The notes below the pieces were generated by a model. The model was not told the origin of the DNA and searched no databases. It was given only the letters and a program-made list of their open reading frames with translations. This document shows, one piece after another, positions 27 through 61,945 of a DNA stretch of 64,000 bases (position 1 is its first letter; every line of letters begins with the position of its first letter). Origin of the DNA: Calidithermus chliarophilus DSM 9957 (GTDB taxonomy: Bacteria; Deinococcota; Deinococci; Deinococcales; Thermaceae); contig NZ_KE387023.1 in assembly GCF_000430045.1 (NCBI RefSeq), positions 1,799,461-1,863,460 of the forward strand, given 5' to 3'. The position numbers and the translations under genes were made by a program.

Positions 27-57
27 ATAGCTGGTAGCCCATAGCCGATAGCTAGGC
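27..57. repeat. Heptad repeat tract 1
   Basis: Degenerate 7-nt units of the type GCCGATA/GCTGGTA, the same family as the tracts at 487, 1790, 4440 and further on. It lies at the window edge, so its full extent is unknown. Confidence 0.7.
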
Positions 58-67
58 GTGGAACATT

Positions 68-332: not shown

Positions 333-486
333 CTCGTCTGCGCCACCTCCCTCACCCCCTCCCGCGTGAGCCGCACACCCCGGCCGGGGCGGGGCAGCGA
401 CCACCGAACGCCCGTCCCTTGGGGCGTGGGGCTGTAGTTGGCTTACGGGCCGGGCACAACCCCAGTGGATGATCGATTTCAAAAGG

Positions 487-546
487 GCGTTCGGCTATCG
501 GCTATCGGCTATCGGCTATCGGCTATCGACTATCGACTATCGACAC
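487..546. repeat. Heptad repeat tract 2
   Basis: About eight tandem units of CTATCGG changing to CTATCGA, directly downstream of the acyl-CoA dehydrogenase gene. The period is exactly 7 nt over most of the tract. Confidence 0.85.
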
Positions 547-549
547 CCC

Positions 550-1671
550 TCAGCGATACAACTCCCTCGAGATTACCAACCGCTGAATCTCGCTCGTGCC
601 CTCGTAGATCTCCGTGATCTTGGCGTCGCGGTAGTAGCGCTCGGCGCGGTATTCGCGGTGGTAGCCGTAGCCGCCCAGCACCTGCACGGCGTCGCGGGTG
701 ACGCTCACGGCGGTGTCGGAGGCGAAGAGCTTGGCGGTGGAGGCCTCGAGGGTGAAGCGTTCGCCGCGGTCTTTCTTGGCGGCGGCCTCGAGGGTGAGGG
801 CGCGGGCGGCGGCGATCTTGACGTGCATGTCGGCAAGCTTGAAGCCGACGCCCTGGAACTCGCGGATCTTCTGGCCGAACTGGGTGCGCTCGCCGGCGTA
901 GGACCTGGCGATGTCGAAGGCGGCGCGGGCCATGCCCACGGCCTGGGCGGCGATGCCGATGCGGCCGGAGTCGAGGCCGGCGAGGGCCTGGGCGAGGCCG
1001 CGGCCCTCCTGGCCCAGCAGGTTCTCGTCGGGGACGAACACGGCGTCGAAGTGGACTTCGGTGGTGTGGGCGGCGTGGAGGCCCATCTTGTGTTCGGGGC
1101 TGCCGAAGCTGAGGCCGGGGGTGCCCCCCTCCACGATGAAGCTGCTGATGCCCGTGTCGCCTCGAGCCATCACCACGTACACCTGGGCCTGCCCGCCGGA
1201 GGTCACCCAGCTCTTGACCCCGTCGAGCTGCCAGCCGCCGCTCACCTTGCGGACGGCGAGCTTCATGGAGGCGGGGTCGGAGCCGGCGTGGGGTTCGGTC
1301 AGGCAGAAGGCCCCGATCCACTCGCCCCGGGCCAGGGGCACGAGGTACTTCTTCTTCTGCTCGGGGGTGCCGAACTTGTTGAGCATGTACTGCGGGAGGC
1401 CGCTGGTGACGGAGAGGATGACGGCCACGCTGGGGTCGGCGGCGGCGATCTCCTCCATGGCCAGCACCCAGGTCACGCTGTCCAGGCCCGCCCCGCCCCA
1501 CTCCTCGGGGGTCGTCATGCCCAAAAGCCCGAGCTCGGCCAGGGTTCTGAGCTGCGGCCAGGGATACTCGCCCGACGCGTCGTACTGCGGGGCCTTCTCC
1601 CACAGCACCTCGCGGGAGACCTGCCGCACCATGTCCAGGACCATCTTCTGGTCGTTGGTCAAGACTGCCAT
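550..1671 (-). CDS. Acyl-CoA dehydrogenase (short-chain/butyryl type)
   Basis: FAD-dependent enzyme introducing a trans-2 double bond into acyl-CoA in fatty-acid beta-oxidation or branched amino-acid breakdown, passing electrons to ETF. The 373 residues match the usual family length. Visible signatures are CLTEPHAGSD (flavin/substrate site, about residue 122), the ERTQFGQ motif (about 266) and near the C-terminus IYEGTSEIQR, whose Glu is the catalytic base in this family. The start is ATG; a -10-like TACGAT lies 7 nt upstream (1679-1684 on the other strand), so the mRNA is probably leaderless. It is monocistronic between two heptad repeat tracts. Exact chain-length preference cannot be read from sequence. 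Confidence 0.93.
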   Translation of the reverse strand: MAVLTNDQKMVLDMVRQVSREVLWEKAPQYDASGEYPWPQLRTLAELGLLGMTTPEEWGGAGLDSVTWVLAMEEIAAADPSVAVILSVTSGLPQYMLNKFGTPEQKKKYLVPLARGEWIGAFCLTEPHAGSDPASMKLAVRKVSGGWQLDGVKSWVTSGGQAQVYVVMARGDTGISSFIVEGGTPGLSFGSPEHKMGLHAAHTTEVHFDAVFVPDENLLGQEGRGLAQALAGLDSGRIGIAAQAVGMARAAFDIARSYAGERTQFGQKIREFQGVGFKLADMHVKIAAARALTLEAAAKKDRGERFTLEASTAKLFASDTAVSVTRDAVQVLGGYGYHREYRAERYYRDAKITEIYEGTSEIQRLVISRELYR

Positions 1672-1765: not shown

Positions 1766-1906
1766 TGGTGGCTCGGGGTGAGAGGAACCCCTCCCCGTCG
1801 GCGTCGAGGGTCTAGGGCCGGGGGTCGAGGACCAAGGCGTACGACGTACGACCCGCGCCGGGCGTTCGGCTATCGGCCATCAACTATCGACCATCGACCA
1901 TCGACG
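1766..1906. repeat. Heptad repeat mosaic 3
   Basis: Composite tract: a CCCCTCCCCG(T)CGG block, a TCGAGG-rich block, ACG-rich heptads (GTACGAC units), then CTATCGG/CCATCGA heptads that run into the 3' end of the cysteine synthase gene and supply its stop codon at 1884. 1672-1765 holds only the dehydrogenase promoter. Confidence 0.85.
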
Positions 1907-2840
1907 GCCTGGCCACGCTCGAGCCCTCCTCCTCCGCGTAAAGCGCCGTGGTGAGGTACTTCGAGCCCGAGTCCGGGCTGATGCAGACCACGCGCTTGCC
2001 CTCGCCCAGCTCCCTCGCCACCTGGAGGGCTCCCCAGACGATCCCCCCGCTGCTCATGCCCAGGAAGAGGCCTTCCTCGCGGGCGAGGCGGCGGGCGAGG
2101 GGGAAGGCTTCCTCCTCCCACACCTGGATCACCCGGTCGAGCATGCGAACGTCGAGGTTGGGCGGGATGAAGCCGGGGCCCATGCCCTGGAACTGGTGCT
2201 GGCCCATCTGGCCGCCGGAGAGCACGTTGGAGCGGCCCGGCTCGCAGGCGATGACTTGCACGCCGGGGACGCGCTCGCGCAGGTAGCGCCCCACGCCCAT
2301 GATGGTGCCCCCGGTGCCCGAGCCGTAGACGAAGGCGTCGACGCGGCCGTCCATCTGCTCGAAGATCTCGGGGCCGGTGGTCTCGTAGTGGGCCTGGACG
2401 TTGGCGGGGTTGTCGAACTGGTCGGGCATGTAGCCGCCGGTCTCGAGCGCGATCTCCTGGGCCTTCTCGCGGGCGGCCAGCATGCGCCGCTCGGGGTCGG
2501 TGAGCACCAGCTCGGCCCCGTAAGCCCGCAGGGTGCGCTTGCGCTCCTCCGACATCTGCGCGGGCATGCACAGGATGAGCCGGTAGCCGCGGCTGGCGGC
2601 GATCATCGCCAGGCCGATCCCGGTGTTGCCGCTGGTCGGCTCGACGATGACCTGGCCCGAGCCGGGCTTCAAGATGCCGCGCTCCTCGGCGTCGCGCACC
2701 ATGTACCACGCGGCGCGGTCCTTGATGGAGCCGCCGGGGTTGGAGCCCTCGAGCTTCACGAAAACCTCGGCCATGCCGGGCTCGACCACCCGGCGCAGCT
2801 TGACCAGAGGGGTCTTGCCGATGGCGTCCTCGATGAACAT
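1884..2840 (-). CDS. cysK: Cysteine synthase (O-acetylserine sulfhydrylase family)
   Basis: PLP enzyme making L-cysteine from O-acetylserine and sulfide. Seen: IGKTPLV near the N-terminus, PLP-lysine in GGSIKDR (Lys40), TSGNTG substrate loop, GSGTGGT phosphate-binding loop, and the C-terminal SGG serine region. I chose the internal ATG at 2840 because a TATGCT -10 box ends 7 nt before it (leaderless pattern) and because family members start close to the IGKTPL motif; an upstream ATG at 2852 would add four residues. The last codons (SMVDGR then TAG) are encoded by the adjacent heptad repeat, so the native C-terminus has probably been replaced or extended. CysK versus CysM specificity is not resolved. 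Confidence 0.92.
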   Translation of the reverse strand: MFIEDAIGKTPLVKLRRVVEPGMAEVFVKLEGSNPGGSIKDRAAWYMVRDAEERGILKPGSGQVIVEPTSGNTGIGLAMIAASRGYRLILCMPAQMSEERKRTLRAYGAELVLTDPERRMLAAREKAQEIALETGGYMPDQFDNPANVQAHYETTGPEIFEQMDGRVDAFVYGSGTGGTIMGVGRYLRERVPGVQVIACEPGRSNVLSGGQMGQHQFQGMGPGFIPPNLDVRMLDRVIQVWEEEAFPLARRLAREEGLFLGMSSGGIVWGALQVARELGEGKRVVCISPDSGSKYLTTALYAEEEGSSVARPSMVDGR

Positions 2841-3537: not shown

Positions 3538-4362
3538 ATGCGACAACTGGCGACCAGCCGGCCGGGGCGGGCCGAGGACGGCTTCGTGACGCAGCTCTAC
3601 CACAAGGCCAAGCGCAACTTCTGGGACCCGCAGGCGCTCGAGTTCGACCAGGACCGGCAGGACTGGCAGGGTCTGAGCCCGGACCAGCGGGAGGTGCTGC
3701 TGCACCTATCGGCCCTGTTCGTGGGCGGGGAGGAGGCCGTAACCCTCGACCTCGCGCCCTTCCTGTGGCGGGTGAGCCGGGACGGCCGCTACGACGACGC
3801 GCTGTTCGTGGCCGCCTGGACCCTCGAGGAGGCCAAGCACGCCGAGTTCTTCGACCGCTTCCACCGCGAGGTGGTGGGCACGGCGCCCGAGCTGGCCGTC
3901 TACCACCTGCCCTCCTGGCAGAAGATCTTCTACGCGGCCCTGCCCGATGCCATGAACGCCCTCGTCGCCGACGCCAGCCCCGAGGCCGAGGTGCGGGCTC
4001 TGTGCACCTACAACCTCGTCGTGGAGGGAATCCTCGCCGAGACGGGCTACCGGGCCTACCGCGAGGTGCTCGAGCACGGCGCCATCCTGCCGGGCCTGCG
4101 CGCGGGTCTGACCCACGTCCAGGCCGACGAGGGCCGCCACATCGCCTACGGCCTGCACACCCTCGGCAAGCACCTCCAGGCCCACCCCCACACCCGCGCG
4201 GTGCTCGAGGACGTCCTGGCCGAACTGGTCCCCGCCGCCCTGGGCGTGGTGGAGGAGATCTTCGCCGCCCACGACCCCATGCCCTTCGCCCTCGAGCAGG
4301 AACTGTTCGTGGACTACGCCTTCCGCCAGTTGCAGCACCGGCTGGAGGCGCTGGAGAGATAG
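3538..4362 (+). CDS. R2-like ligand-binding oxidase (Mn/Fe, R2lox)
   Basis: Ferritin-fold protein related to ribonucleotide reductase R2 that assembles a Mn/Fe cofactor, binds a fatty-acid-like ligand and makes an intramolecular ether cross-link. The 274 residues carry all six expected metal ligands: Glu65, Glu98, His101, Glu163, Glu198 and His201. Val68 and Tyr158, matching the Val72/Tyr162 cross-link pair of the Geobacillus protein, are also present, which argues for R2lox rather than true R2. There is no R1 gene nearby. The start is ATG with a leaderless promoter. The physiological reaction of R2lox is not known. It is monocistronic and convergent with the next gene. Confidence 0.88.
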   Translation: MRQLATSRPGRAEDGFVTQLYHKAKRNFWDPQALEFDQDRQDWQGLSPDQREVLLHLSALFVGGEEAVTLDLAPFLWRVSRDGRYDDALFVAAWTLEEAKHAEFFDRFHREVVGTAPELAVYHLPSWQKIFYAALPDAMNALVADASPEAEVRALCTYNLVVEGILAETGYRAYREVLEHGAILPGLRAGLTHVQADEGRHIAYGLHTLGKHLQAHPHTRAVLEDVLAELVPAALGVVEEIFAAHDPMPFALEQELFVDYAFRQLQHRLEALER

Positions 4363-4371
4363 GGGTGCGCG

Positions 4372-4589
4372 GCTTGTGCCTCGTGTCCTGTGGTAAGCCC
4401 CTCCCCGCGCCCGGGGAGGGGGTATCCCCCCAGCCCCCCTTGCTAAGGGGGGTAGAGACAGGCGTCTGGCGTTTGGCGTTTTGCGTCTCGCGTACGACGT
4501 AGGACGTACGACGTACGTTGGGCGTTCGGCGTTTTGCGTTTGGCTATCGGCTATCAGCTATCGGCTATCGACCATCGACCATCGACCCA
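4372..4589. repeat. Heptad repeat mosaic 4
   Basis: Fullest example of the family: a CTCCCCGCGC...GGGGAGG hairpin, a CCCCCTTGCTAAGGGGG hairpin, then GCGTTTG/GCGTTTT heptads, ACGTACG/ACGTAGG heptads, GGGCGTTCGG, and finally CTATCGG, CCATCGA heptads. It fills the whole gap between two convergent genes. Confidence 0.9.
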
Positions 4590-4590
4590 T

Positions 4591-5181
4591 TCAAGCCCGC
4601 AACCCCTTCGACAGCGGTTGCCCCTTCGGCAGCCAGAAGGCGAGGTACTCGTGCTCGAGCCGCATCAGCAGCCGCAGGCCCTCCTCGGTCTCGAAGCGCA
4701 TGAACAGGGGCAGGCTGAAGCGCGCCTCGCCGCGCTCGATGCGGAAGTTCTCGTAGGTGTAGGCCATGTAGAAGTCCTGCTCGCTGTGCATGAGGCGGTC
4801 GGTGTAGAAGACGACGGTTTCGCCGTAGCCCTTGGTGGCCTTGCTCATGTCCTCCCAGAAGATCCCCTGGGCCTCGACCTCGCTCAGGTACTCCCCGCTC
4901 ACCATGCCCAGGCGGCCGTAGAAGGCGGCGGGGAAGTCCTTGAACTCGTAGTAGAGCCCCTGGGGGCCGTGCCAGAGCTTGATCAGGCCGTTCTCATAGC
5001 AGCGCCCCTGGGCGCTCTCGCGGGCGAACTCGCGGGCCAGGCTGAGGTGCTCGAGGTCGGGGAAGGAGCCCATCTCTAAACCCTCGAACAGCAGGCGCTG
5101 CGGGTCGATCACCAGGTCGCGCGGGCGCGGCAGGGCGGGCTTGGGGGTGCGGGTTTTGCTCTTGCTCGAACGCAGGGCCAT
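4591..5181 (-). CDS. Conserved-looking protein of unknown function
   Basis: The 196-residue protein has no motif I recognise. The N-terminal 25 residues are basic and Pro/Ser-rich; the rest is a soluble, aromatic-rich alpha/beta-like sequence with many Tyr and Phe (for example GLYYEFKDFPAAFYGRLG, about residues 75-92). Start ATG with a strong AGGAGA ribosome site 3-4 nt upstream. Codon use is like its neighbours, so it is a real gene. It is co-directional with, and about 100 bp downstream of, the menaquinone methyltransferase gene, so the two may be co-transcribed, but nothing shows a shared function. Confidence 0.75.
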   Translation of the reverse strand: MALRSSKSKTRTPKPALPRPRDLVIDPQRLLFEGLEMGSFPDLEHLSLAREFARESAQGRCYENGLIKLWHGPQGLYYEFKDFPAAFYGRLGMVSGEYLSEVEAQGIFWEDMSKATKGYGETVVFYTDRLMHSEQDFYMAYTYENFRIERGEARFSLPLFMRFETEEGLRLLMRLEHEYLAFWLPKGQPLSKGLRA

Positions 5182-6020: not shown

Positions 6021-6113
6021 CGAACGAGTGTAGCACAAGGGGTTAAGGGCAAACGATACCCAGGACAGCTTGCGGGAGAGCCTGCCGCCCGGAGGGGGTT
6101 TTATACCAGATTC

Positions 6114-6147
6114 GGTCAGTCCGTCGCCGGACGGCGACGGACTGACC
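6114..6147. repeat. 34-bp perfect inverted repeat
   Basis: 15-bp arms (6114-6128 and 6133-6147) around GGAC. No T-tract follows on either strand at once, so it is not a clear terminator. It lies just ahead of the 58-bp inverted element at 6168, between menG's promoter and recN's 3' end; 6033-6113 shows nothing else. Confidence 0.7.
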
Positions 6148-6167
6148 CGACCGAAGGGAGTGCTCTG

Positions 6168-6225
6168 GGATTCAAAAAGATAACCTCTGGGATCTTTGGA
6201 TTTGGATGATTATCTTTTTGAATCC
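6168..6225. repeat. 58-bp inverted-repeat element, copy 1
   Basis: Perfect 16-bp arms 6168-6183 and 6210-6225 (GGATTCAAAAAGATAA and its complement) around a 26-bp AT-rich core. About 75 bp including GTGCTCT on the left closely match the copy at 9007-9064. AT-rich compared with its surroundings. Could be a MITE or a terminator for recN. Confidence 0.8.
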
Positions 6226-6252
6226 GGTATTATGGGCTCGAGCGCCGGTGAG

Positions 6253-7818
6253 CTACCGCGCTTGCAGCAGCTCGCGGGCGTGCTGCATGGCGGCGTCGGA
6301 GTAGGAGCCCGAGAGCATGCGGGCCAGCTCGCGCACCCGCTCCTCGCCCCCCAGCGCCTGGATCTCCACCCGGCCCTTGTTCTTGACCACCCGGTAGTGC
6401 TGCTGGGCCTGGGCGGCGATCTGGGGGAGGTGGGTCACCACCAGCACCTGCCGGCGCTTGGCCAGCCGGGCCAGCCGCTCGGCCACGCGCCAGGCGGCCT
6501 CCCCGCCCACCCCGGCGTCCACCTCGTCGAAGACCACGGTGTCGGCCTCGCTGCCCGTGAGCAGCGCCAGCGCGAGCATCACCCGCGAGAGCTCGCCGCC
6601 CGAGGCGGCCTTCTCCAGCGGGGCCAGCCCCTGCCCGGGGTTGGCGCTGAAGAGGAGCTGCACCTCCTCGAGCCCCTCCGGCCCCGGCTCGTTGAGGGGG
6701 ACCAGGCCCACCTCGAAGCGGGCCTCGGGCATCCCCAGGAAGCGGATCTCCTGCGTGGCCTTGGCGCTGAGGTCGCGGGCGGCGGCGCGGCGGGCCTCGG
6801 AGAGGGCCTCCCCGGCCTGCGTCAGCTCGGCGTGGGCCTTCGCCACCTCGCCCGCCAGGGCGGCCAGCCGGTCCTCGGCCCCCTCGAGCTCGGCCAGCTC
6901 GCGGCGCGACTCCTCCGCGAAGGCCAGGATGCCCTCCACCCCCTCGCCGTACTTGCGCTCCAGCCGCTCGATGAGGGCCAGGCGCCCCTCGACCTCCTCG
7001 AGGCGGGCGGGGTCGGCCTCGAGGCCCTCGAGGTAGTCCTCCAGCTCGCGGGCGATGGCCCGCAGGCTGTCCAGGGCGGCCTCGAGGTCGTTGCCCAGGC
7101 TCTCCAGGCCGCTGTCGTAGCGGGCGGCGCTGCGCAGCTCCTTGAGCGCGGCCCCCACGATCCCCAGCCCGTCGCCCTCGCCGCTGAGCCCGCCGGCCGC
7201 CGCCCCCACCCGCTCGCGCAGGGTCTCGAGGTGGCGCAGCCGCTCGACCTCGTTCTCCAGGCGCTGCTTCTCGCCGGGCTCCAGCCGCGCGTCGTCGATC
7301 TCCTTGAGCTGGAAGCGCAGCACGTCCAGCCGCCGCTCGCGCTCCCGCGCGGCCTGGGAGAGCCGCTCCTGCTCGGCCAGCAGGCCCCGCCAGCGGGCGT
7401 AGCGCTCGCGGTAGGCCTCGAGGGTCGCCCCTTCGATGAGGCTGTCCAGCAGGCCGCGCTGCGCCTTGCGCGAGGCCAGGGCCAGCGCCGCGTGCTGGGC
7501 GTGGATGGCGAGGTGCTCCCCCGTCGCCTCGGCCAACTCGCGCAAGGAGACCACCTCGCCGTCCAGCCGCGGCGTGCTGCGCCCCCCCGCGACCCGCCTC
7601 GAGAAGACCCGCCCCCCGAACCACGCGGTCACCAGGAGGCTGTCGGCCCCGGAACGGATCATCCCCTCGGCCTTCTCGCCCAGCAGCAGCGACAGCGCGT
7701 CCACCAGCACGCTCTTGCCCGCCCCGGTCTCCCCGGTGAGCACCGTGAGCCCCCGGTCGAAGTCCAGGGCCACCGATTCCAGGACGGCCAGATTTTGCAC
7801 CTCGAGCCTTTCCAGCAT
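6253..7818 (-). CDS. recN: DNA repair protein RecN
   Basis: SMC-like ATPase that handles DNA double-strand breaks with RecA. 521 residues, normal for RecN. Walker A GETGAGKS at about residues 29-36, long Glu/Arg/Ala-rich coiled coils in the middle, and C-terminal SGGELSRVMLAL signature followed by VFDEVDAGVGG (Walker B). Start set at ATG 7818, 7 nt after a TAAACT -10 box (leaderless); the in-frame TTG/GTG codons further upstream would put non-family sequence ahead of MLERLEVQNLAV. It is divergent from the sulfurtransferase, with a repeat mosaic between. Confidence 0.95.
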   Translation of the reverse strand: MLERLEVQNLAVLESVALDFDRGLTVLTGETGAGKSVLVDALSLLLGEKAEGMIRSGADSLLVTAWFGGRVFSRRVAGGRSTPRLDGEVVSLRELAEATGEHLAIHAQHAALALASRKAQRGLLDSLIEGATLEAYRERYARWRGLLAEQERLSQAARERERRLDVLRFQLKEIDDARLEPGEKQRLENEVERLRHLETLRERVGAAAGGLSGEGDGLGIVGAALKELRSAARYDSGLESLGNDLEAALDSLRAIARELEDYLEGLEADPARLEEVEGRLALIERLERKYGEGVEGILAFAEESRRELAELEGAEDRLAALAGEVAKAHAELTQAGEALSEARRAAARDLSAKATQEIRFLGMPEARFEVGLVPLNEPGPEGLEEVQLLFSANPGQGLAPLEKAASGGELSRVMLALALLTGSEADTVVFDEVDAGVGGEAAWRVAERLARLAKRRQVLVVTHLPQIAAQAQQHYRVVKNKGRVEIQALGGEERVRELARMLSGSYSDAAMQHARELLQAR

Positions 7819-7876
7819 CGCCCCTAGTTTAACGGGCGCCGATAGGCGTGACTGATAGTGGGTGACCAAAGGCGGG

Positions 7877-8022
7877 TGGTGTGTGGCTCGTGGTGAAAAG
7901 AGCTCCCCCTGCCCGCGGGGAGGGTTTATCCCCTCTGGCCCCCCTTGCTAAGGGGGGAACAAGGCGTCTTGCGTCTTGCGTTTGGCTATCCGCTATCGAC
8001 CATCGACCATCGACCATCGACC
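7877..8022. repeat. Heptad repeat mosaic 5
   Basis: Same module order as tract 4: GTGGCTCGTGG, CCCTGCCCGCGGGGAGGG hairpin, CCCCCCTTGCTAAGGGGGG hairpin, GCGTCTT/GCGTTTG heptads, then CCATCGA heptads. It separates the divergent recN and sulfurtransferase genes and ends next to the leader AAGGTAAC that precedes the latter. Confidence 0.88.
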
Positions 8023-8040
8023 TTAAGGTAACTTGTTCCC

Positions 8041-8874
8041 ATGCACCCCCTGGTAACCGCCGAATGGCTCCTCGAACACCTCCAAGACCCCGACCTGCGC
8101 GTCGCCGACGTGCGCTTCTCGCTGGCCGACCCCCTGGCCGGGCGCATGGCCTACCTCGAGGCCCACATCCCCGGCGCCGTCTACCTCGACCTCGAGACCG
8201 ACCTCTCCGGCCCCGTGCGCCCCGACCGCAAGGGCGGCCGCCACCCCCTGCCCGACCCGCAAGCCCTGGCGGCGACGCTCGGGGAGGACGGGATCGGCGA
8301 CGAGCACTTCGTGGTGGCCTACGACGAAAACGGCATGTTCGCCCCGCGCCTGTGGTGGCTGCTGCGCTGGCTGGGCCACGAGCGGGTGGCCGTGCTCGAC
8401 GGGGGCATCAGGGCCTTCGTGGCGGCGGGCGGCTCCCTCACCGCCGAGCGGCCCGAGTACCCCAGGGCCACCTTCACCCCCCGCCCGCAGGCGGGCTGGG
8501 TCGTGTCGGCGGAGGAGGTGGCCTCGAGGGGTGCAGGCACCGTGCTCATCGACGCCCGGGCCCCTGAGCGCTACCGGGGCGAGGTCGAGCCCATCGACCC
8601 CGTGGCCGGGCACATCCCCGGTGCCATCAACCGCAACTGGGCCGACAACTTCGAGCCCGACGGCCGGCACAAGTCCCCCCAGGCCCTGCGCGAGCGCTTC
8701 GCGGCGGGCGAGGGCAAGGAGCTCATCCTCTACTGCGGCTCGGGCGTGAGCGCCTCCGCCAACCTGCTGGCGCTCGAGGTCGCCGGGATCAAGGGCGCCA
8801 AGCTCTACGCGGGCTCCTGGAGCGACTGGGTGAGCGACCCCTCGAGGCCCGTCGCCAAGGGGGAAGAGGGCTAG
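8041..8874 (+). CDS. Sulfurtransferase, thiosulfate/3-mercaptopyruvate type
   Basis: Two rhodanese domains in 277 residues; transfers sulfane sulfur to cyanide or thiols. The N-terminal domain (about 1-135) is catalytically empty. The C-terminal domain ends in the active loop YCGSGVSA with Cys232; the CGSGV loop resembles mercaptopyruvate sulfurtransferases more than thiosulfate ones (CRKGV). The leader AAGGTAAC.TGTTCCC just before the ATG is nearly identical to that of the RsmF gene at 10506. Its stop codon overlaps the stop of a convergent VOC gene remnant by 3 bases. Confidence 0.9.
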
Positions 8875-8998
8875 GTCTCCCGCGCGTAGTACTCCCACTT
8901 GATCCCGTCGGGGTCGCCGAAGGCGATGTAGGGGAAGCGCATCCCCAAGAACTCGTCGGTCTTGGGCCCGATCACCTCCACGACCGTCAGGGAGGGGT
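8871..8998 (-). pseudogene. Truncated VOC/glyoxalase-family gene, 3' remnant
   Basis: The complement of 8871-8998 is open and reads as the C-terminal half of a VOC domain: VVEVIGPKTDEFLG, then RFPYIAFGDPDGIKWEYYARE and stop. This closing DPDG(N/I).(W/I)E(Y/L) pattern is typical of the glyoxalase fold. The reading frame ends abruptly at the left edge of the 58-bp inverted element (9007-9064), and the N-terminal half is not found beyond it, where the SDR gene begins. It looks like a gene interrupted and partly deleted when the element or a rearrangement arrived. The stop TAG overlaps the sulfurtransferase stop. Confidence 0.7.
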
Positions 8999-9006
8999 GT
9001 GCTCTA

Positions 9007-9064
9007 GGATCCGAAAAGATAGCCTCTGATGGTCTTTGGATTGGACGATTATCTTTTTGAATCC
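9007..9064. repeat. 58-bp inverted-repeat element, copy 2
   Basis: Imperfect arms 9007-9021 and 9049-9064, same core and same right arm (TTATCTTTTTGAATCC) as copy 1 at 6168. The two copies lie in the same orientation 2.8 kb apart. This copy abuts the VOC remnant on one side and the SDR stop codon on the other, and may end SDR transcription. Confidence 0.8.
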
Positions 9065-9068
9065 GGCA

Positions 9069-10288: not shown

Positions 10289-10319
10289 GGAGTCATAGTA
10301 AGGAGGCGAAATGCTGAAC

Positions 10320-10484
10320 GCCAAGCGCCGGGCGCGGGGCGCGGGTCGTACGTCGTACGCAAAACGCAAGACGCAATACGCAAAACGCTTTGGCCCCCGG
10401 CCCTCGACAAGGGGGCTACCACGAGCCACTAGCTATCAGCTATCGGCCATCAGCTATCGACTATCGACTATCGACCACCGACAC
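10320..10484. repeat. Heptad repeat mosaic 6, left half inverted
   Basis: The ACG/GCG heptads (GTACGTCGTACGC, CAAAACG, CAAGACG units) are in the opposite orientation to mosaics 3-5, while the CTATCGG/CTATCGA heptads on the right keep the usual one. It fills the divergent gap between acpS and the RsmF gene. This shows that modules move or flip separately. Confidence 0.88.
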
Positions 10485-10490
10485 CCGTAA

Positions 10491-11867
<1,377 letters not shown>

Positions 11868-12095
11868 GTCGGTGGTTGATGGCCGGGCGCGGGTCGTACG
11901 TCGTACGCAATACGCCTAACGTCGAACGCCCAACGCCGAACGCGAGATGCGAGACGCAAAACGCCTTGTCACCCCCCTTAGCAAGGGGGGCTGGGGGGGG
12001 ATAACCCCACACGAGCCACAAGCTGACGGCTGACCGCTGAAAGCTGATGGCTGATGGCTGATAGCTGATAGCTGACCGCTTACGGCTTACTGCTA
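11868..12095. repeat. Heptad repeat mosaic 7
   Basis: GTCGTACGTCGTACGC and CAATACG/AACGCC heptads, CCCCCCTTAGCAAGGGGGG hairpin, then about ten AGCTGAT/GGCTGAC/CGCTTAC units. Convergent gap between rsmF and aroB. The last units form the end of aroB, including its stop at 12080. Confidence 0.9.
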
Positions 12096-13123
12096 ACCCG
12101 CTCGAGAAACTCCCCGTAAGCCTGCCGCAGCACTTCTTCCTCCACGGGCTGCACTGCTAGGTGGCCGGGCTCGAGGGGGATGACCCAGTGCAGGTTACTG
12201 CCCAGTTTTTTCTTGTCGCGGGCCATGTAGGGCCAGACCTCGTCCCAGCTCAGGGGGGGCAGGGGAGGGGGTTGGAGCCAGCGCAGCAGCGCTTCGACCC
12301 AGGGCGTCAGGTCGGTGCCGCCGTGGGCCTTGCCCAGCAGGGCGGCGTAGAGCAGGCCGTAGGCGACGGCGGCGCCGTGGGAGAGGGCGTGGTGGGTGGC
12401 GGCCTCGAGGGCGTGGCCCAGGGTGTGGCCCAGGTTGAGCTTCTTGCGCTCGCCCTTCTCGTAGGGGTCGGCCTCCACGACCCGCACCTTCACCGCGACG
12501 GCGCGCTCGAGGTACTCCTCCAGCCCCGGCCAGTCGGGGCGCACGGGCTCGAGGCGCATCAGCACCTCGTCGCCGGCGATGATCCCGTGCTTGAAGGCCT
12601 CCACCAGCCCCTCGCGGAAGAGGGAGGGGGGGAGGGTGGCGAGGCTGTGGAGGTCGAGGTAGACGGCCTTGGGGGTGTGGAAGGCTCCCACCAGGTTCTT
12701 GCCCTCCTCGAGGTTGATCCCGGTCTTGCCGCCCACGCTGGCGTCCACCATCGCCAAGGTGGTGGTGGGGAAGCTCACGTAGGCGACGCCGCGCAGGTAG
12801 CTCGCGGCCACGAAGCCGCCGAGGTCGGTGAGGGTGCCCCCGCCCACGACGTACAGCGTGGCGTCGCGGGGCAGCCCGAGCCCGGCCAGCCAGGAGAGCA
12901 CCCGGCCGTACGTCTGGAGGGTCTTGGCCGCTTCGCCGCCGGTCAGCCCCAGGCGGTGGGGGATGGCCAGGGCCCCCGCGAGCTCGAGGGCGTACCCCTC
13001 CACCGCCCGGTCGTAGAGCAGGGCTTTGGGGCCCGGCCCGGCCTCGGCTTTGGCCTGTTCGGTCAGCCCGCTGCCGAGGTAGAGCGGGTAGGCCGGGTTC
13101 TGGTCAACGGTCAGCTTCCGCAT
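12080..13123 (-). CDS. aroB: 3-Dehydroquinate synthase
   Basis: Second step of the shikimate pathway: DAHP to 3-dehydroquinate, NAD and divalent metal dependent. 347 residues. Visible: VVGGGTLTDLGGFVAASYLRG and the GGKTGINLEEGKNLVGAFHTP active-site block, then LNLGHTLGHALEA with metal ligands. The start codon lies inside the 3' end of aroK (20-nt overlap), so it is coupled as the last gene of aroC-aroK-aroB. The final codons and TAA come from heptad repeat sequence. Confidence 0.95.
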   Translation of the reverse strand: MRKLTVDQNPAYPLYLGSGLTEQAKAEAGPGPKALLYDRAVEGYALELAGALAIPHRLGLTGGEAAKTLQTYGRVLSWLAGLGLPRDATLYVVGGGTLTDLGGFVAASYLRGVAYVSFPTTTLAMVDASVGGKTGINLEEGKNLVGAFHTPKAVYLDLHSLATLPPSLFREGLVEAFKHGIIAGDEVLMRLEPVRPDWPGLEEYLERAVAVKVRVVEADPYEKGERKKLNLGHTLGHALEAATHHALSHGAAVAYGLLYAALLGKAHGGTDLTPWVEALLRWLQPPPLPPLSWDEVWPYMARDKKKLGSNLHWVIPLEPGHLAVQPVEEEVLRQAYGEFLERVSSKP

Positions 13124-29043: not shown

Positions 29044-29190
29044 GTGGCTCGTGGCTCGTAGGAACCCCTTCCCGTCGGCATCAAGGTCGAGGGCCAAGGC
29101 GTCTTGCGTTTGGCGTTTGGCGTACGACGCAGGACGTACGACCCACGCCCGGCGCCCGGCTATCGGCGTTCAGCATTCCGCATCTCAACC
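29044..29190. repeat. Heptad repeat mosaic 8
   Basis: GTGGCTCGTGGCTCG, CCCTTCCCGTCGG block, GCGTCTT/GCGTTTG heptads, ACGTACG heptads, then degenerate CTATCGG units. It reaches the thrC 3' end; both neighbours read leftwards. Confidence 0.85.
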
Positions 29191-30492
29191 CAGCAGCACC
29201 TGCCTGAGCGCTTGCAACGAGGGCTCGACGGTGGTCACCTGGGTCTCCCGCTGCCAGAGGGCCTCGAGCGCCCCGTCCTTGGGCGCCGGGATGCCCAGGG
29301 CGCTGGACACGGCCTCGGGGAACTTGGCGGGGTGGGCGCAGGCCAGGGTGACGAGGGGGGTGCGGTCGCCGGTCTCGGCGCGGTAGCGGGCCTGGGCCTC
29401 GAGGCCCACCGAGGTGTGGGGGCAGGCCAGGTAGCCGTAGGCCCGGTGGGTCTCGCGCATGCGCTCGAGGGTCGCCTCGTCCGAGACGGTGGTGCCCCAG
29501 AACCACGCCCGCATGCGCTCGGGGCCGAGCAGGTGCAGCAGGCGCTCGAAGTTGCTGGGCGAGCCCACGTCCATGGCGTTGGAGACGGTGGCGATGGTGG
29601 GGTGGAACCCGTAGGCCTCGGCCTTGCCCGCCAGGAAGTCGGGGAAGAAGTGGTTGGCGTTGTGGGCGGCGAGGAAGCGCTGCACGGGCTGGCCCATCAG
29701 AGCGGCAAAAACCCCGCCGGTGAGGTTGCCCAGGTTGCCGCTGGGGACGCAGAAGTTCAGGCGCTGTGGGCTCAGGCCGTGCTCGGCGGCGAGCTGCTGA
29801 GCGGCCCAGAGGTAGTACAGCGCCTGCGGCAGCAGCCGCCCGATGTTGATGGAGTTGGCGCTGCTGAGGGGCAGGTGGGCCAGTTCGGGGTCTACGAAGG
29901 CCTCCTTGACCATGCGCTGGCAGTCGTCGAAGCTGCCCCGCACCGCCAGCGCCCGCACCCCGGGCCGCCGCACGATGAGCTGGCGCTCCTGCACGTCGCT
30001 GACCTTGCCCAGCGGGTAGAGCAGCACCACCTCGATGTTGTCCTGGCCGGCGAAGCCGTCGGCCACGGCGCTGCCGGTGTCGCCGGAGGTGGCGACCAGG
30101 ATCACGCGGCGCTCGCCGCGCCGGCGCAGGAAGTGCTGCATCAGGCGGGCCATGGTGCGGGCCCCGAAGTCCTTGAAGGAGCGGGTGGGTCCGTGGAAGA
30201 GCTCGAGCACGAACAGGTCGTCGCCCAGGCGCACCAGGGGGCAGGGGAAGTCGAGGGCGTCGTGCAGGATGGCCTCGAGCTCGGCCAGCGGGATCTCGGG
30301 CTCGAGCCAGTGGCGCAGGACGCTGACGGCGAGCTCGGGGAGGGAGCGCGCGCTCAGCCAGTTGGCGGAGTCAACGGTCGGAACCCTGTCGGGCACGTAG
30401 AGCCCGCCGTCCGGGGCCAGGCCCTTGAGCAGGGCGTCCTCGAAGCTCAGCGGGGCTCGGTGGGGGTCGCGGGTGCTGTAGTACTGAATCAT
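29185..30492 (-). CDS. thrC: Threonine synthase
   Basis: PLP enzyme turning O-phosphohomoserine into threonine. 435 residues, the long (ThrC2-like) type: DGGLYVPDRVP, PLP-lysine in TRSFKDFGAR (about 107), GDTGSAVADGF, and CVPSGNLGNL near the middle. It starts 16 nt after the hom stop, so hom-thrC is an operon. No thrB follows in the window. Confidence 0.94.
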   Translation of the reverse strand: MIQYYSTRDPHRAPLSFEDALLKGLAPDGGLYVPDRVPTVDSANWLSARSLPELAVSVLRHWLEPEIPLAELEAILHDALDFPCPLVRLGDDLFVLELFHGPTRSFKDFGARTMARLMQHFLRRRGERRVILVATSGDTGSAVADGFAGQDNIEVVLLYPLGKVSDVQERQLIVRRPGVRALAVRGSFDDCQRMVKEAFVDPELAHLPLSSANSINIGRLLPQALYYLWAAQQLAAEHGLSPQRLNFCVPSGNLGNLTGGVFAALMGQPVQRFLAAHNANHFFPDFLAGKAEAYGFHPTIATVSNAMDVGSPSNFERLLHLLGPERMRAWFWGTTVSDEATLERMRETHRAYGYLACPHTSVGLEAQARYRAETGDRTPLVTLACAHPAKFPEAVSSALGIPAPKDGALEALWQRETQVTTVEPSLQALRQVLLG

Positions 30493-31540: not shown

Positions 31541-32653
31541 GTGGATGGCCGGGAGGTCCTGGAGGGCTACGCGCGGGAGCAGGGCTTCCTGACCGCCTGG
31601 GCCCCCCTCGAGCTGCCCCAACCCGTCCGGCAGCGCTACCGCGACTGGGTCGGGCAAGGAGCCCACGCCGGGATGGGCTACCTCGAGCAGCGGCTGGAGG
31701 AGCGGCTCGAGCCCGCGCGCCACTTCCCCTGGGTCCGCAGCGTGCTGGTGCTGGCCGCGCCCCACGCCTACCCCGACCCCGGCGTGCCCGCGGGTGGCTT
31801 GCGGGCGGGCCGGGTGGCCCGCTACGCCTGGGTGCGCGACTACCACGGCCTGCTCGAGCCCCACCTGGCCGCCCTGGAGGAGCTGGCCCGGCGGGCGGGG
31901 GTGCAGGCCAAGGGGTACGTGGACCACGGGCCGCTGTCCGAGCGCAGCTACGCCGCGCTAGGCGGGCTGGGCTGGATCGGCAAGAACGGCATGTGGATGC
32001 GAATGGGGGAGGGCAGCTACCTCACCCTGGCCGTGCTGCTCACCGGCCTCGAGGCCGCCCCTTTGCCGCTTCACCCCAACCGCTGCGGCCGCTGCGCCCG
32101 CTGCTTCACCGCCTGCCCCACCCAGGCCCTCCCCGGCGACGGCACCCTCGACGCCCGCCGCTGCATCAGCTACTGGACCATCGAGCACCGCGGCCTCATC
32201 CCCCAGGACTTGTGGCCCGGCATCGGCGACTGGCTGCTCGGCTGCGACGTCTGCCAGGAGGTGTGCCCCTGGAACCGCAAGGCCGCCGCCTTCTGGCAGG
32301 GCTTCACGCCCGACCCCGAGCTGGCCCACCCCGACCTTTGGGCCTTCCTCACCCTCTCCGGACGCGCCTTCGCCCGCCGCTTCGAGGGCACCGTCTTCAC
32401 CCGCCCCGGCCGCACCGCCCTCGCCCGCAACGCCCTGATCGTCCTCTCCAACACCGGCGACGACGCCCACCTGCCCTACTTCCGCCGCGCCTTGCAGGAC
32501 ATAAACCCGGCAGTGCGGGCCACGGCCGCGGCAGGCCTGGTGCGCCTGGGGAAGGCAGGGGAAGCCGAAGCCGCGTTGGGCGACCCCGACCCGGAGGTGG
32601 CTCGCTACGTGCAGGAGGCGTTGGAAAAGGTGCCGATAGCTGATGGCCGATAG
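31541..32653 (+). CDS. queG: Epoxyqueuosine reductase
   Basis: Cobalamin and Fe-S enzyme for the last step of queuosine synthesis in tRNA. 370 residues: N-terminal cobalamin-binding domain, DHGPLSERSYAALGGLGWIGKN (active-site Asp region), two [4Fe-4S] clusters from CGRCARCFTACP and CDVCQEVCPWN, and C-terminal HEAT-like repeats. GTG start. The last codons PIADGR and the TAG stop are heptad repeat sequence, a third case of a repeat ending a gene. Confidence 0.93.
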   Translation: MDGREVLEGYAREQGFLTAWAPLELPQPVRQRYRDWVGQGAHAGMGYLEQRLEERLEPARHFPWVRSVLVLAAPHAYPDPGVPAGGLRAGRVARYAWVRDYHGLLEPHLAALEELARRAGVQAKGYVDHGPLSERSYAALGGLGWIGKNGMWMRMGEGSYLTLAVLLTGLEAAPLPLHPNRCGRCARCFTACPTQALPGDGTLDARRCISYWTIEHRGLIPQDLWPGIGDWLLGCDVCQEVCPWNRKAAAFWQGFTPDPELAHPDLWAFLTLSGRAFARRFEGTVFTRPGRTALARNALIVLSNTGDDAHLPYFRRALQDINPAVRATAAAGLVRLGKAGEAEAALGDPDPEVARYVQEALEKVPIADGR

Positions 32654-32894
32654 CTGATAGCCAAACGCAAAACGCAAAACGCCAAACGCCAAACGCCAAA
32701 CGCAAGACGCAAAACGCCAAACGCAAAACGCGGGTCGTACGTCCTACGGCGTACGCAAAAAGCCAAACGCAAGACGCAAGACGCCTTGGCCCCCGGCCCT
32801 CGACGCCGGCGGGCAGGGACGGGGTGGGGTCAACCATGGGCCACTAGCCTCCCGCCGATGGCTGAAAGCTAACGGCTGATGGCTGACGGCTAAC
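32633..32894. repeat. Heptad repeat mosaic 9, inverted
   Basis: Starts inside queG with GATAGCT units, then about eighteen CAAACGC/CAAAACG/CAAGACG heptads (complement of the GCGTTTG units), GTCGTACGTC, a GGCCCTCGACG block, and AGCTGAT/GGCTGAC units. Longest tract in the window, in opposite orientation to mosaic 4. Fills the convergent gap between queG and the phosphoesterase gene. Confidence 0.9.
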
Positions 32895-32899
32895 TACCC

Positions 32900-33607
32900 T
32901 CATCCCGGATACCGCCCCAGCCGGATCACCTCCGCCACGATGGGGGGCAGTTCCCAGGCGGTGAGGTCGAAGATGACCTGGCCGAAGTCGTAGGGCACTT
33001 TGAGGAAGCGGATGTTGAGCTTGCCCTCGAGGTCTTCCTCCAGGATCAGCACGTCGGCGCCCGGTTCGCCGCCCAGGGTCAGGCCCACCGAGCCGGGGTC
33101 GATGAGCAGCCCGTCGCCCACGCGGCGGTAGAAGGGGATGTGCCGGCCGGCGAACACGCCCCAGCGGGTGCGGAGCTTGGTGAACATCTCCTGGATCTCG
33201 CGGACGTTGGCCTCGGTGTCCAGTTTGGCCTCGGGGTCGTCGGGGAGGCCGTGCAGCGCGGTGAGACGGCCGCCGATGAGCTCGATGCGCTGACGGGGGC
33301 GCAGGCCGCGCAGGAATTGGAGCTCGCGCTTGCTGAGCTGTTCGCTGGTCCAGGCCAGGATCGAGTCGGCCACGCCTTCGCGCTGCAGGCCCATCATGGC
33401 GAAGGCCACCTTGAGGTCGGCGGCACCCGGCACGCAGGGGATGCCCTCCTTGTCCAGGCGCCGCAAAACCTGACGGGGGTGGGGCCCATAGCCCACCAGA
33501 TCGCCCACTGCCCAGACCTGGTCCACGCTTTCGTGGCGGGCGGCCTGCAGGGCGGCCTCGAGCGCGGGCAAGTTGGCGTGTATCTCGGCGAGGATTGCCA
33601 GACGCAT
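32900..33607 (-). CDS. Metallophosphoesterase-fold protein with degenerate metal site
   Basis: 235 residues resembling YfcE/MJ0936-type phosphoesterases. Seen: AEIHANLPALEA (the usual first Asp is Glu8, His10 kept), VGDLVGYGPHP (Asp kept), then PGAADLK where GNHD is expected (Asn-His lost), LHGLP, and AGRHIPF where GHTH is expected. With at least three ligands changed it may bind one metal, or be a non-catalytic binding protein. Start taken at ATG 33607 by family fit. Confidence 0.75.
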   Translation of the reverse strand: MRLAILAEIHANLPALEAALQAARHESVDQVWAVGDLVGYGPHPRQVLRRLDKEGIPCVPGAADLKVAFAMMGLQREGVADSILAWTSEQLSKRELQFLRGLRPRQRIELIGGRLTALHGLPDDPEAKLDTEANVREIQEMFTKLRTRWGVFAGRHIPFYRRVGDGLLIDPGSVGLTLGGEPGADVLILEEDLEGKLNIRFLKVPYDFGQVIFDLTAWELPPIVAEVIRLGRYPG

Positions 33608-42337: not shown

Positions 42338-42370
42338 CCGATAGCCGCTAGCTCATAGCCGAGCGCGAGA
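42338..42370. repeat. Short heptad repeat tract 10
   Basis: CCGATAG/CCGCTAG/CTCATAG units directly after the ATPase gene and just before the terminator. The smallest member of the family in the window. Confidence 0.6.
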
Positions 42371-42376
42371 CCCTGT

Positions 42377-42410
42377 AGGGGCAGGCCCAGAGCCTGCCCC
42401 TGCGTTTTTT
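42377..42410 (+). terminator. Terminator of the peptide transporter operon
   Basis: 10-bp stem 42377-42386/42392-42401 followed by GCG and six T (42405-42410). Confidence 0.88.
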
Positions 42411-43696: not shown

Positions 43697-43925
43697 AGCC
43701 GTCAGCGGTCAGCTATCGGCCGTCAGCGAAAGGCTTGTGGCTTGTAGTGAAAAGGGAACCCCACCCCGCGCGCGGGGTGGGTTTATCCCCCTGGCCTCCC
43801 TTGCCAAGGGGGGAACAAGGCGTTTTGCGTCTCGCATCTCGCGTTCGGCGTTGGGCGTTCGACGTTAGGCGTATTGCGTACGACGTAAGACGTAAGACCC
43901 GCGCCAGGCCATCGGCGTACACCAC
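43697..43925. repeat. Heptad repeat mosaic 11
   Basis: GTCAGCGGTCAGC units, GTGGCTTGTAGTG, CCACCCCGCGCGCGGGGTGG hairpin, CCTCCCTTGCCAAGGGGGG hairpin, GCGTTTT/GCGTCTC/GCGTTCG heptads, ACGTAAG/ACGTACG heptads. Lies between two genes that both read rightwards. Confidence 0.9.
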
Positions 43926-45831: not shown

Positions 45832-45955
45832 GCTAAGCCGTCAGCTCGTGGCGTGTGGCTAGTGGTTTGTCAAGGGTCAAGGGTCGAGGATCGAGGGCTA
45901 AGGCGTCCCGCGTATTGCGTCTTGCGTACGACGTACGACGCAGGACGTACGCCCC
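45832..45955. repeat. Heptad repeat mosaic 12
   Basis: GTCAGCTCGTGGCGTGTGGC, AAGGGTC/GAGGATC heptads, GCGTATT/GCGTCTT heptads, then ACGTACG heptads that abut the stop codon of the RHH gene. Convergent gap. Confidence 0.87.
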
Positions 45956-46177
45956 TTAGCTCTCTTCTTCCTCGGGCTCGAGGTTCTTGAGCAGGTCCTC
46001 GAGGCTGGCCTTGCCCTCCTCGAGGTCCTGCGCGATCTTCTGGATCGCCAGGCGGACCACCTCCGACTTGGAGACCAGGCGCTCGGGGTTGGAGAGCTCG
46101 TAGGCGGCTTTGGTCAGCAACGCGTCCTGCTCGTCGCTGATGACCACCTGGAGCCTTTTTTTCTCTTTCTTCGCCAT
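45956..46177 (-). CDS. Ribbon-helix-helix (CopG-like) DNA-binding protein
   Basis: 73 residues from ATG 46177: RLQVVISDEQDALLTKAA as the N-terminal strand and helix, LVSKSEVVRLAI as the second helix of the RHH fold, then an acidic tail (LEPEEEES). Upstream in-frame GTG/TTG codons would add an unstructured Gly/Ala stretch. Divergent from murA across a 230-bp AT-rich region with palindromic sites, so it may regulate itself or murA; no antitoxin-partner toxin is seen. Confidence 0.75.
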   Translation of the reverse strand: MAKKEKKRLQVVISDEQDALLTKAAYELSNPERLVSKSEVVRLAIQKIAQDLEEGKASLEDLLKNLEPEEEES

Positions 46178-60481: not shown

Positions 60482-60682
60482 GCAGCGTTTCCTTACCCTA
60501 GAATCTTAGCGCATCTACGGGCTTGTTGGGCTGGTTCTTCCGAACGGGCTGTTCACGAGGCGTTAACCAAGACCTCCTGGCGCGCCCGGTGGTCGTGCGA
60601 ACGAAGCGCGGGCGGGAGGAAGGCCCTCGAGTGCGGCGTGGGCGCTTACAATGATCGAGGGGTGGAACCAATCCCTGAGGTT

Positions 60683-61720
60683 ATGGCGCGCACCAGTTAC
60701 ACCCTCGAAGACGTGGCCCGTGCGGCGGGGGTTTCGCCCAGTACGGTTTCGCGGGTCATCAACGGGACCGCCCGGGTGCGCCCGGGCAAGCTCAAGGCGG
60801 TGCTCGAGGCCATCGAGCGGCTGGGTTACCAGCCCAACCTCATGGCCAAGGGCCTGGCCCAGGGCAAGTCCCTGACCGTCGGCGTGATGGTGCAGGAGAT
60901 CGCCAGCCCCTTCTACGGCGAGATGATCAAGGGCATCGAGCAGGGGCTCGACGGCACGCTCTACCACCCGGTGTTCTCCACCGGGCACTGGCGGGCCGAG
61001 CAGGAGAGGGAGGCACTGCGGGTGCTCAGCGCCCGCCAGATCGACGCCCTGATCGTGCTCGACGGCCTGGTGTCCGAGGAGTACCTCCTGGGCCTGGCCC
61101 GCAAGATGCCGCTGGTGCTGTTCGGCCGCCGGATCCGGGGCTTAGAGCACAACACGCTGCTGGTGGACAACCTGCAGGGGGCCTACCTGGGGACCCGCCA
61201 CCTCGTCGAGCTCGGCCACACCCATATCGTGCACATCGCCGGCCCCGCCTTCCACCTCGACGCCAAGAGCCGCCTCGAGGGCTACCGCAAGGCCCTGGAG
61301 GAGGCGGGGATCCCCTTCGAGCCCGAGCGGGTGATCGAGGGCGACTACGTGGAGCCCTCCGGGATGCTCGCCGTGGAGAGCCTGCTCGCGCGGCGCGTAC
61401 CTTTCACCGCGATCTTCGCCGCCAACGACCAGATGGCCTACGGCGCGCGCCTGGCGCTGTACCGCCGGGGCATCCGCGTCCCCGAGGACGTCTCGCTGGT
61501 GGGCTTCGACGACCTGCCGGGCTCGAGCTACATGACCCCGCCCCTCACCACCGTCCGCCAGCCGACCCTCGAGCTCGGCCGCGAAGCCGCCCGCGCCGCC
61601 TTGCTGATGCTCGAGGGCCAGCCCTACGAACCCCCGCTGTTCGGCACCAGCCTCGTTGTGCGCGAGTCCACGGCGATGCTGCGTCACAGCCGGGTGGCCC
61701 TGCCGAGCCGGTGGTCGTGA
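60683..61720 (+). CDS. LacI/GalR-family transcriptional regulator
   Basis: 345 residues: HTH YTLEDVARAAGVSPSTVSRVINGTARV with hinge helix at about 48-58, then a periplasmic-binding-protein-like core. Start ATG 60683 with CTGAGG upstream; TACAAT at about 60650 is a -10 candidate. No sugar operon is adjacent, so target and ligand are unknown. 60482-60649 shows no gene. Confidence 0.92.
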   Translation: MARTSYTLEDVARAAGVSPSTVSRVINGTARVRPGKLKAVLEAIERLGYQPNLMAKGLAQGKSLTVGVMVQEIASPFYGEMIKGIEQGLDGTLYHPVFSTGHWRAEQEREALRVLSARQIDALIVLDGLVSEEYLLGLARKMPLVLFGRRIRGLEHNTLLVDNLQGAYLGTRHLVELGHTHIVHIAGPAFHLDAKSRLEGYRKALEEAGIPFEPERVIEGDYVEPSGMLAVESLLARRVPFTAIFAANDQMAYGARLALYRRGIRVPEDVSLVGFDDLPGSSYMTPPLTTVRQPTLELGREAARAALLMLEGQPYEPPLFGTSLVVRESTAMLRHSRVALPSRWS

Positions 61721-61726
61721 AGCGAT

Positions 61727-61941
61727 AAGCCCTCAGCCGTCAGTGGTCAGCGGTCAGCCGTCAGCGATCAGCGGGAGGCCTGTGGCCCGTGGTTGCCCCT
61801 CTCCCCGCCGGCGGGGAGGGTTTATCCCCCCCAGCCCCCCTTGCTAAGGGGGGTGACAAAACGTCTTGCGTTTGGCGTTTTGCGTACGACGTAGGACGTA
61901 CGACGTAAGACGCGCGTCCGGCGTTCAGCTATCGGCGTCCC
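61727..61941. repeat. Heptad repeat mosaic 13
   Basis: CAGCCGTCAGTGGTCAGCGGT units, CTCCCCGCCGGCGGGGAG hairpin, CCCCCCTTGCTAAGGGGGG hairpin, GCGTCTT/GCGTTTG/GCGTTTT heptads, ACGTACG/ACGTAAG heptads, and a degenerate GCTATCGGC end. Same order as mosaics 4 and 5. Convergent gap. Confidence 0.9.
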
Positions 61942-61945
61942 GCCT

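Follow-up and report, generated by a model that had tools for sequence, protein, structure and literature searches.

An ordered composite family of heptamer repeats with a double-hairpin core in the gene gaps of Calidithermus chliarophilus

The heptanucleotide repeat tracts in a 64,000-nt stretch of the C. chliarophilus DSM 9957 genome (contig NZ_KE387023.1, positions 1,799,461 to 1,863,460; hereafter the window) are copies of one composite family. An initial annotation had described them as degenerate mosaics at 13 intergenic sites whose units change gradually. Instead, zones in a fixed order, joined by conserved phase junctions, surround a non-heptamer core of two hairpins, and both the zone order and the core had been overlooked; neither a free mosaic structure nor independent slippage at 13 places describes the tracts. 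The family is probably a BIME-like, dispersed, composite extragenic repeat which is maintained by slippage and non-allelic recombination and does without a REP-associated transposase.

The 7-nt period itself was confirmed. Self-matching at lag 7 exceeded the threshold at 637 positions of the window, with harmonics at lags 14 and 21, as compared to 0 positions in five second-order Markov simulations; the remaining lags up to 21 yielded 0 to 3 positions in the window. Tandem Repeats Finder flagged the same places as the lag-7 scan. Among the 13 sites listed initially, 11 passed the threshold; the other two, at 27 and 42338, are real tracts that fall short of it in length. The tracts had been said to occupy about 2.2 kb; at threshold they cover only about 1.7 kb, but the higher figure is reasonable when the non-heptamer core is counted.

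The analysis was extended to another 40 stretches of this contig, each 20 kb long, giving a sample of 864 kb including the window. Tracts were read on the strand bearing GGCTATC; orientation was set by words and order was not used, therefore the zone order is not built in. In the 864 kb, 144 merged tracts cover 23.5 kb (2.7%), and 130 of them contain at least four core units. A few of the 144 are probably due to chance; nine lack any family word. Extrapolation from this one sampled contig to 4.69 Mb puts the genome total at an estimated 700 copies or so. The commonest unit classes are AGCCGAT, AAAACGC, AAGACGC, ACGACGT, and AGCTATC.

The full plan is H-F-core-C-D-J-B-A and reaches up to about 340 nt; some copies are incomplete. 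The H zone, first in the plan, consists of [AGCCGTC, AGCGGTC, AGCTATC]n and is followed by the F zone, [GGCTCGT, GGCTTGT]n, which precedes the core. In its first form the core is a very stable, GC-rich double hairpin, CCCTCCCCGC-NN-GCGGGGAGGG followed by ATCCCCCC-AG-CCCCCCTTGCTAAGGGGGG; in its second form, called E, GTCGAGGGTCGAGGGCCAAGG-type heptamers (GTCGAGG-type) replace the hairpins. After the core comes the C zone, [GCGTTTT, GCGTCTT]n, then the D zone, [CGTACGA, CGTAGGA]n ending in CCCGCGCCC, the J zone, GGCGTTC, the B zone, [GGCTATC]n, and finally the A zone, [GACCATC]n. The tracts of the window are:

27..60, minus strand: short AGCCGATAGCTGGTAG-type tract, under the lag-7 threshold
468..564, plus strand: J-B-A tract (GGCTATC x5, GACTATC)
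1800..1917, plus strand: E-D-J-B-A tract, gives the TAG stop to gene 1884-2840 (-)
4371..4587, plus strand: composite element with F 4371-4393, hairpin 1 4398-4421, hairpin 2 4423-4452, C 4461-4492, D 4491-4517, J/C 4520-4544, B 4542-4569, and A 4570-4587
7877..8041, plus strand: F, double-hairpin core, and C-B-A, in a divergent gap
10296..10503, no single strand: two oppositely oriented half elements, D/C/E/F on the minus strand, then B-A on the plus strand
11867..12113, minus strand: composite with H, F, hairpin 2, C, and D, including a 73-nt C module at 11897-11969
29044..29191, plus strand: tract of F, E core, and C-D-B
32620..32916, minus strand: full composite with E core
42338..42390, minus strand: short degenerate heptamer tract, under the threshold
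43697..43917, plus strand: composite with H, F, core, C, D, and B, including the 73-nt C module at 43815-43887
45832..45963, plus strand: tract of H, F, E core, C, and D
61719..61937, plus strand: near-complete composite with H 61719-61774, F 61775-61794, hairpin 1 61799-61820, hairpin 2 61823-61853, C 61861-61884, D 61883-61911, and J/B 61921-61937

Zone pairs were scored against the expected order H-F-E-C-D-B-A, with at least two units required per zone. This order was obeyed by 642 of 692 pairs in the 864 kb, and 50 ran against it. The C-to-D junction was in phase in all 63 cases, B-to-A in 59 of 62, and H-to-F in 39 of 43; from D to the next zone, a shift of 4 nt was kept in 57 of 73. Simple slippage acting independently at every site, with unrelated heptamer repeats as its product, would account for 7-nt units, local runs of a single unit, and unit numbers that vary among copies. 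It is nevertheless highly improbable, because the non-zero phase shift is conserved and a fixed order and a non-heptamer core are shared by more than 100 tracts; as a sole explanation it is refuted by the order statistics.

Gene gaps of at least 60 nt were delimited by simple gene calling based on codons. Tracts were present in 43 of the 71 convergent gaps, in 73 of the 314 tandem gaps, and in 12 of the 100 divergent gaps. All three kinds of gap are thus occupied, as first noted, but that statement hid a strong convergent bias. Orientation along the chromosome was even (65 versus 63). The description of the tracts as lying only between genes was essentially correct: only 4.5% of the bases in tracts fall within called genes, and no overlap exceeds 60 nt. 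Typically, such an overlap is a tract running into a stop codon. On the A side, tracts reach into the end of a converging gene by a median of about 3 nt, and stop codons are supplied by heptamers, for example in gene 1884-2840 (-). The element at 4371..4587 fills the gap between the converging genes 3538-4362 (+) and 4591-5181 (-). Confinement to the gaps between stop codons would result mostly from purifying selection against hits in genes or promoters.

The two-hairpin block has a folding energy of about -31 to -43 kcal/mol. Among 39 distinct stems, 372 of 390 pair positions match, a figure inflated by picking the stems for their pairing score; loops are variable and a few stem changes are compensated, one example being CCCACCCCGC / GCGGGGTGGG in the hairpin-1 stem of the element at 43697..43917. 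The near-invariant stems suggest selection or recent homogenisation and, in combination with variable loops, could reflect selection for function, a point against the reading we prefer. An additional C tract lies upstream of 74 of 80 second hairpins and gives a pyrimidine-pyrimidine-purine layout that would allow an intrastrand triplex. In the third strand of the first hairpin, the decisive position held T and A 20 times each, and A would break the triplet. A scan of the window against Rfam returned tRNAs only.

Two stable hairpins per block, stems conserved in this manner, and the enrichment in convergent gaps are what an element with a selected function would display, be it as a bidirectional transcription terminator, as a stabiliser of mRNA 3' ends where genes converge, or as a DNA-binding site. 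We consider this rather unlikely. From our reading of the alignments, the core is retained in Calidithermus roseus at only about 3 of 13 sites where the source genome has one, which makes an indispensable terminator at each site unlikely; furthermore, many tracts lack the hairpin core, orientation is random, a U run after the hairpins is absent, and enrichment at gene ends is equally expected from selection against insertion elsewhere. For a family maintained by slippage and recombination, a terminating effect of the hairpins would probably be incidental and not the reason for its existence.

C. roseus NBRC 110900 (G001) is the sister genome, in agreement with the placement in Thermaceae made initially; mean identity of aligned DNA is about 86%. 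The D zone was counted as a 17-mer with one mismatch allowed. We found 415 matches in the source genome, 164 in C. roseus, 109 in genome G004, and 19 in G007; some genomes of group g3 contained 1 to 3 scattered matches, and genomes of group g5 contained none. A reversed CGTACGA pattern served as control and gave 0 matches in all of these genomes, those of Calidithermus and the sister genus included. The corresponding control with reversed GGCTATC was dropped, as this unit is its own mirror image. In G004 the tracts are simpler, of the C-D type, and arranged differently.

Orthologous sites were compared in 69 collinear gaps free of masked bases. A tract was present in both genomes in 12 gaps, only in the source genome in 11, only in C. 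roseus in 1, and in neither in 45 (p = 1.6e-6). Orientation was the same at 19 of 20 scorable sites (p = 4e-5), although some of these scores depend on one word, and the same words were enriched in C. roseus gaps opposite tracts as compared to its other gaps (p = 4e-8). The tract sites therefore predate the split from C. roseus. The C. roseus versions are shorter; the ends of a tract are often alignable, but internal modules differ, for example a hairpin core in the source genome and an E core in C. roseus, and the D zone is present or absent. Hence, the sites are ancestral and their insides turn over. Modules may have been lost in C. roseus instead of gained in the source genome.

At the site orthologous to 32620..32916, C. 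roseus carries related heptamers over about 40 nt, oriented as in the source genome. The interval corresponding to 4371..4587 lacks gene 3538-4362 and consists of an 84-nt gap with only CCATCGGCCATCGAC-type units at its right end, and that corresponding to 10296..10503 contains an IS-like insertion and no tract. An artefact of assembly or sequencing would be conceivable for repeats, which are generally hard to assemble, and nothing specific pointing to one was found; it has a negligible probability, given that the same architecture occurs at orthologous loci of the separate C. roseus assembly and also on a plasmid of Meiothermus taiwanensis whose sequence is recorded as complete.

A non-autonomous transposable element, MITE or REP-like and mobilised by a transposase in trans, would explain why copy number differs greatly between species. 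Consistent with it, the tract at 14016-14192 of sampled stretch L020 is without a clear C. roseus counterpart, as expected of an insertion, which counts against the reading we prefer; furthermore, the Meiothermus plasmid carries a copy, and IS200/IS605 transposases are present. However, sites and orientation are common to C. roseus, for which reason recent transposition was judged unlikely; moreover, the elements end in arrays whose length varies, and neither constant termini nor consistent target duplications were seen. The best match to the RAYT model NF047646 in two Calidithermus genomes reached 41.7 bits against a cut-off of 80, so dispersal driven by a RAYT was rejected, and the one Y1 transposase scanned by family belonged to IS200/IS605. 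Overall, we regard a transposable element as unlikely. A phage search at E 1e-5 gave no match and viral contigs contained no exact C-D junction; a phage or viral origin was rejected on these grounds. A single composite on plasmid pMtWR-220 of M. taiwanensis runs F, hairpin 2, C, D, B, as is usual for the family, and plasmids are thus able to carry the element. A plasmid family was rejected, as only this single Meiothermus plasmid was found.

Slippage in 7-nt units together with conversion, as proposed initially, fits better than transposition, given that sites are shared with conserved orientation, that modules are copied among them, that a duplication breaks within a tract, and that no RAYT match passed the cut-off. 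One and the same 73-nt C module lies at 11897-11969 (-) and at 43815-43887 (+). A diagnostic stretch of 41 nt within it has seven copies in the source genome, six of them exact, and was not found in C. roseus, G004, or G007 with up to 3 mismatches allowed; the C. roseus orthologs of both window tracts lack it. In sampled stretch L019, positions 7648-8081 and 8780-9213 form a 434-nt duplication with 99% identity that starts within the C zone of two elements and extends into a gene 3' end; its C. roseus counterpart measures about 78 nt. We infer that the shared module and this duplication are the expected traces of recombination among dispersed tracts, conversion being read here from its products. 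Under the recombination model, array lengths would shift in 7-nt steps by slippage, and copies would overwrite each other through non-allelic homologous recombination or gene conversion, with shared in-phase words offering the homology for exchange. Spread to new sites would be rare and may occur by segmental duplication or through plasmid DNA.

The element has the look of a so far undescribed relative of the mosaic repeats known from bacteria. REP and BIME sequences are dispersed, extragenic, and modular, with palindromic units in hundreds of copies, and related genomes differ greatly in them (PMC2817692). The present family resembles them in its dispersed extragenic location (4.5% gene overlap), its palindromic unit, and its more than 100 copies (about 700 estimated). 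Unlike them, it consists mostly of heptamer arrays in a single fixed order, has in each element a single core of two unlike hairpins in place of alternating, regularly spaced REPs, and has no RAYT over the cut-off. Variable-length arrays as ends and the absence of consistent duplication at orthologous short sites also distinguish it from a MITE or transposable element.

Tandem 7-nt units in intergenic DNA are shared with heptameric short tandem repeats in general. The initial comparison with the cyanobacterial repeats of this kind (STRR) was fair on unit length, but the known STRR units appear to differ from those found here. TAACTGA repeats form intergenic heptamer arrays in Beggiatoaceae, Cyanobacteria, and Bacteroidetes, and some genomes mix in other heptamers; they comprise 2 to 6 units of one word, lie mostly upstream of starts in Beggiatoaceae strain BOGUAY, and differ between two Cyanothece strains mostly in 7-nt length steps, and neither ordered zones nor a hairpin core are described there (PMC4679880). 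TAACTGA is one base off the TAGCTGA phase of the B/H word, and its class is missing from the top 45 unit classes here. In contrast to those repeats, the present family follows a composite plan and prefers 3' gaps, convergent gaps being richest and divergent ones poorest. GGGAATC arrays of Xanthomonas and Nostoc are intergenic 7-nt tandem units of the G-quadruplex type; in related Xanthomonas species they mostly keep the same flanking genes and vary in length and sequence (PMC4692102). The GGGAATC arrays, like the STRR and other heptameric arrays known from filamentous cyanobacteria, are single-word repeats without an ordered composite.

BoxC/PIT is an intergenic, strand-neutral intrastrand triplex motif that is unstable between strains; it is a 37-nt motif and not an array composite (PMC4666352). 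The present element is likewise intergenic and strand-neutral, and its core has the pyrimidine-pyrimidine-purine layout, but about half of the readable third strands of the first hairpin have A for T. The RepRanger survey counts thousands of REP-like palindromes in C. roseus, gives counts only, and apparently mentions neither the element nor its heptamers or their order (PMC12306157); the core hairpins may be among the palindromes counted. In the open-access literature covered by the search, no description of the ordered composite was found. Heptamer arrays and modular extragenic repeats are known, and the ordered composite provisionally appears to be new.

A D-zone 23-mer was additionally searched in GTDB genomes. 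Among the matches listed, which may not include the source genome itself, C. roseus occurred many times, a proteobacterial MAG (G112) repeatedly, and one Omnitrophota MAG (G111) and two actinomycetes with single matches. G112 contains 26 near matches to the D pattern; the D word was missing from 284 further Omnitrophota and from 56 members of the proteobacterium's class, therefore the distant occurrence is sporadic. In the Omnitrophota tract GCGTATT precedes CGTACGA, and an excess of the vocabulary was seen on the contig picked for matching and on none of the others. The distant matches may reflect convergence, transfer, or a coincidence of ascertainment. It is very unlikely that words and order (GCGTNTN, then CGTACGA) derive from a sequence-specific generator arising repeatedly in unrelated bacteria, a reading based on the words and partial order in the proteobacterial MAG and once in the Omnitrophota MAG, and on the TAACTGA repeats of other phyla with their one-base difference from the B/H word. 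As separate observations, G112 (stretches L218-L225) contains an independent dispersed composite of its own with the words GCGTCTC, ACGTAGG, ACGTACG, and CGTACGA, and the low-GC Omnitrophota MAG carries several mixed heptamer tracts at 8184-19422 of L209, with GCGTATT/GCGTGAT, AGCTATCAGCTGTC, and AAGTCCG.

As interpreted here, about 2 to 3% of a bacterial genome would belong to a single family of ordered repeats that recombine and lie at the 3' ends of genes. With two sequenced congeners, slippage, conversion, and deletion become readable for each site, which offers a natural system for measuring non-allelic gene conversion in bacteria. The findings also raise the question why seven-nucleotide units, some of them identical words, recur across distant phyla.

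Several further features were observed. Compared with contig C152 of C. roseus, window positions 58251-61960 are inverted and in a different order, and the tract at 61706-61943 lies at a breakpoint. A second dispersed, MITE-like repeat with inverted ends GGATTCAAAAAGATAATC ... GGCTATCTTTTTGAATCC is located at 8981-9069 of the window, at about 13870-14000 of L020, and at about 15300 of L019, and has matches elsewhere in C. roseus as well. A third repeat of about 130 nt (window 6099-6233) has about ten C. roseus matches with 83-90% identity, and a GC-rich segment at 322-519 has similar copies in three C. roseus contigs.
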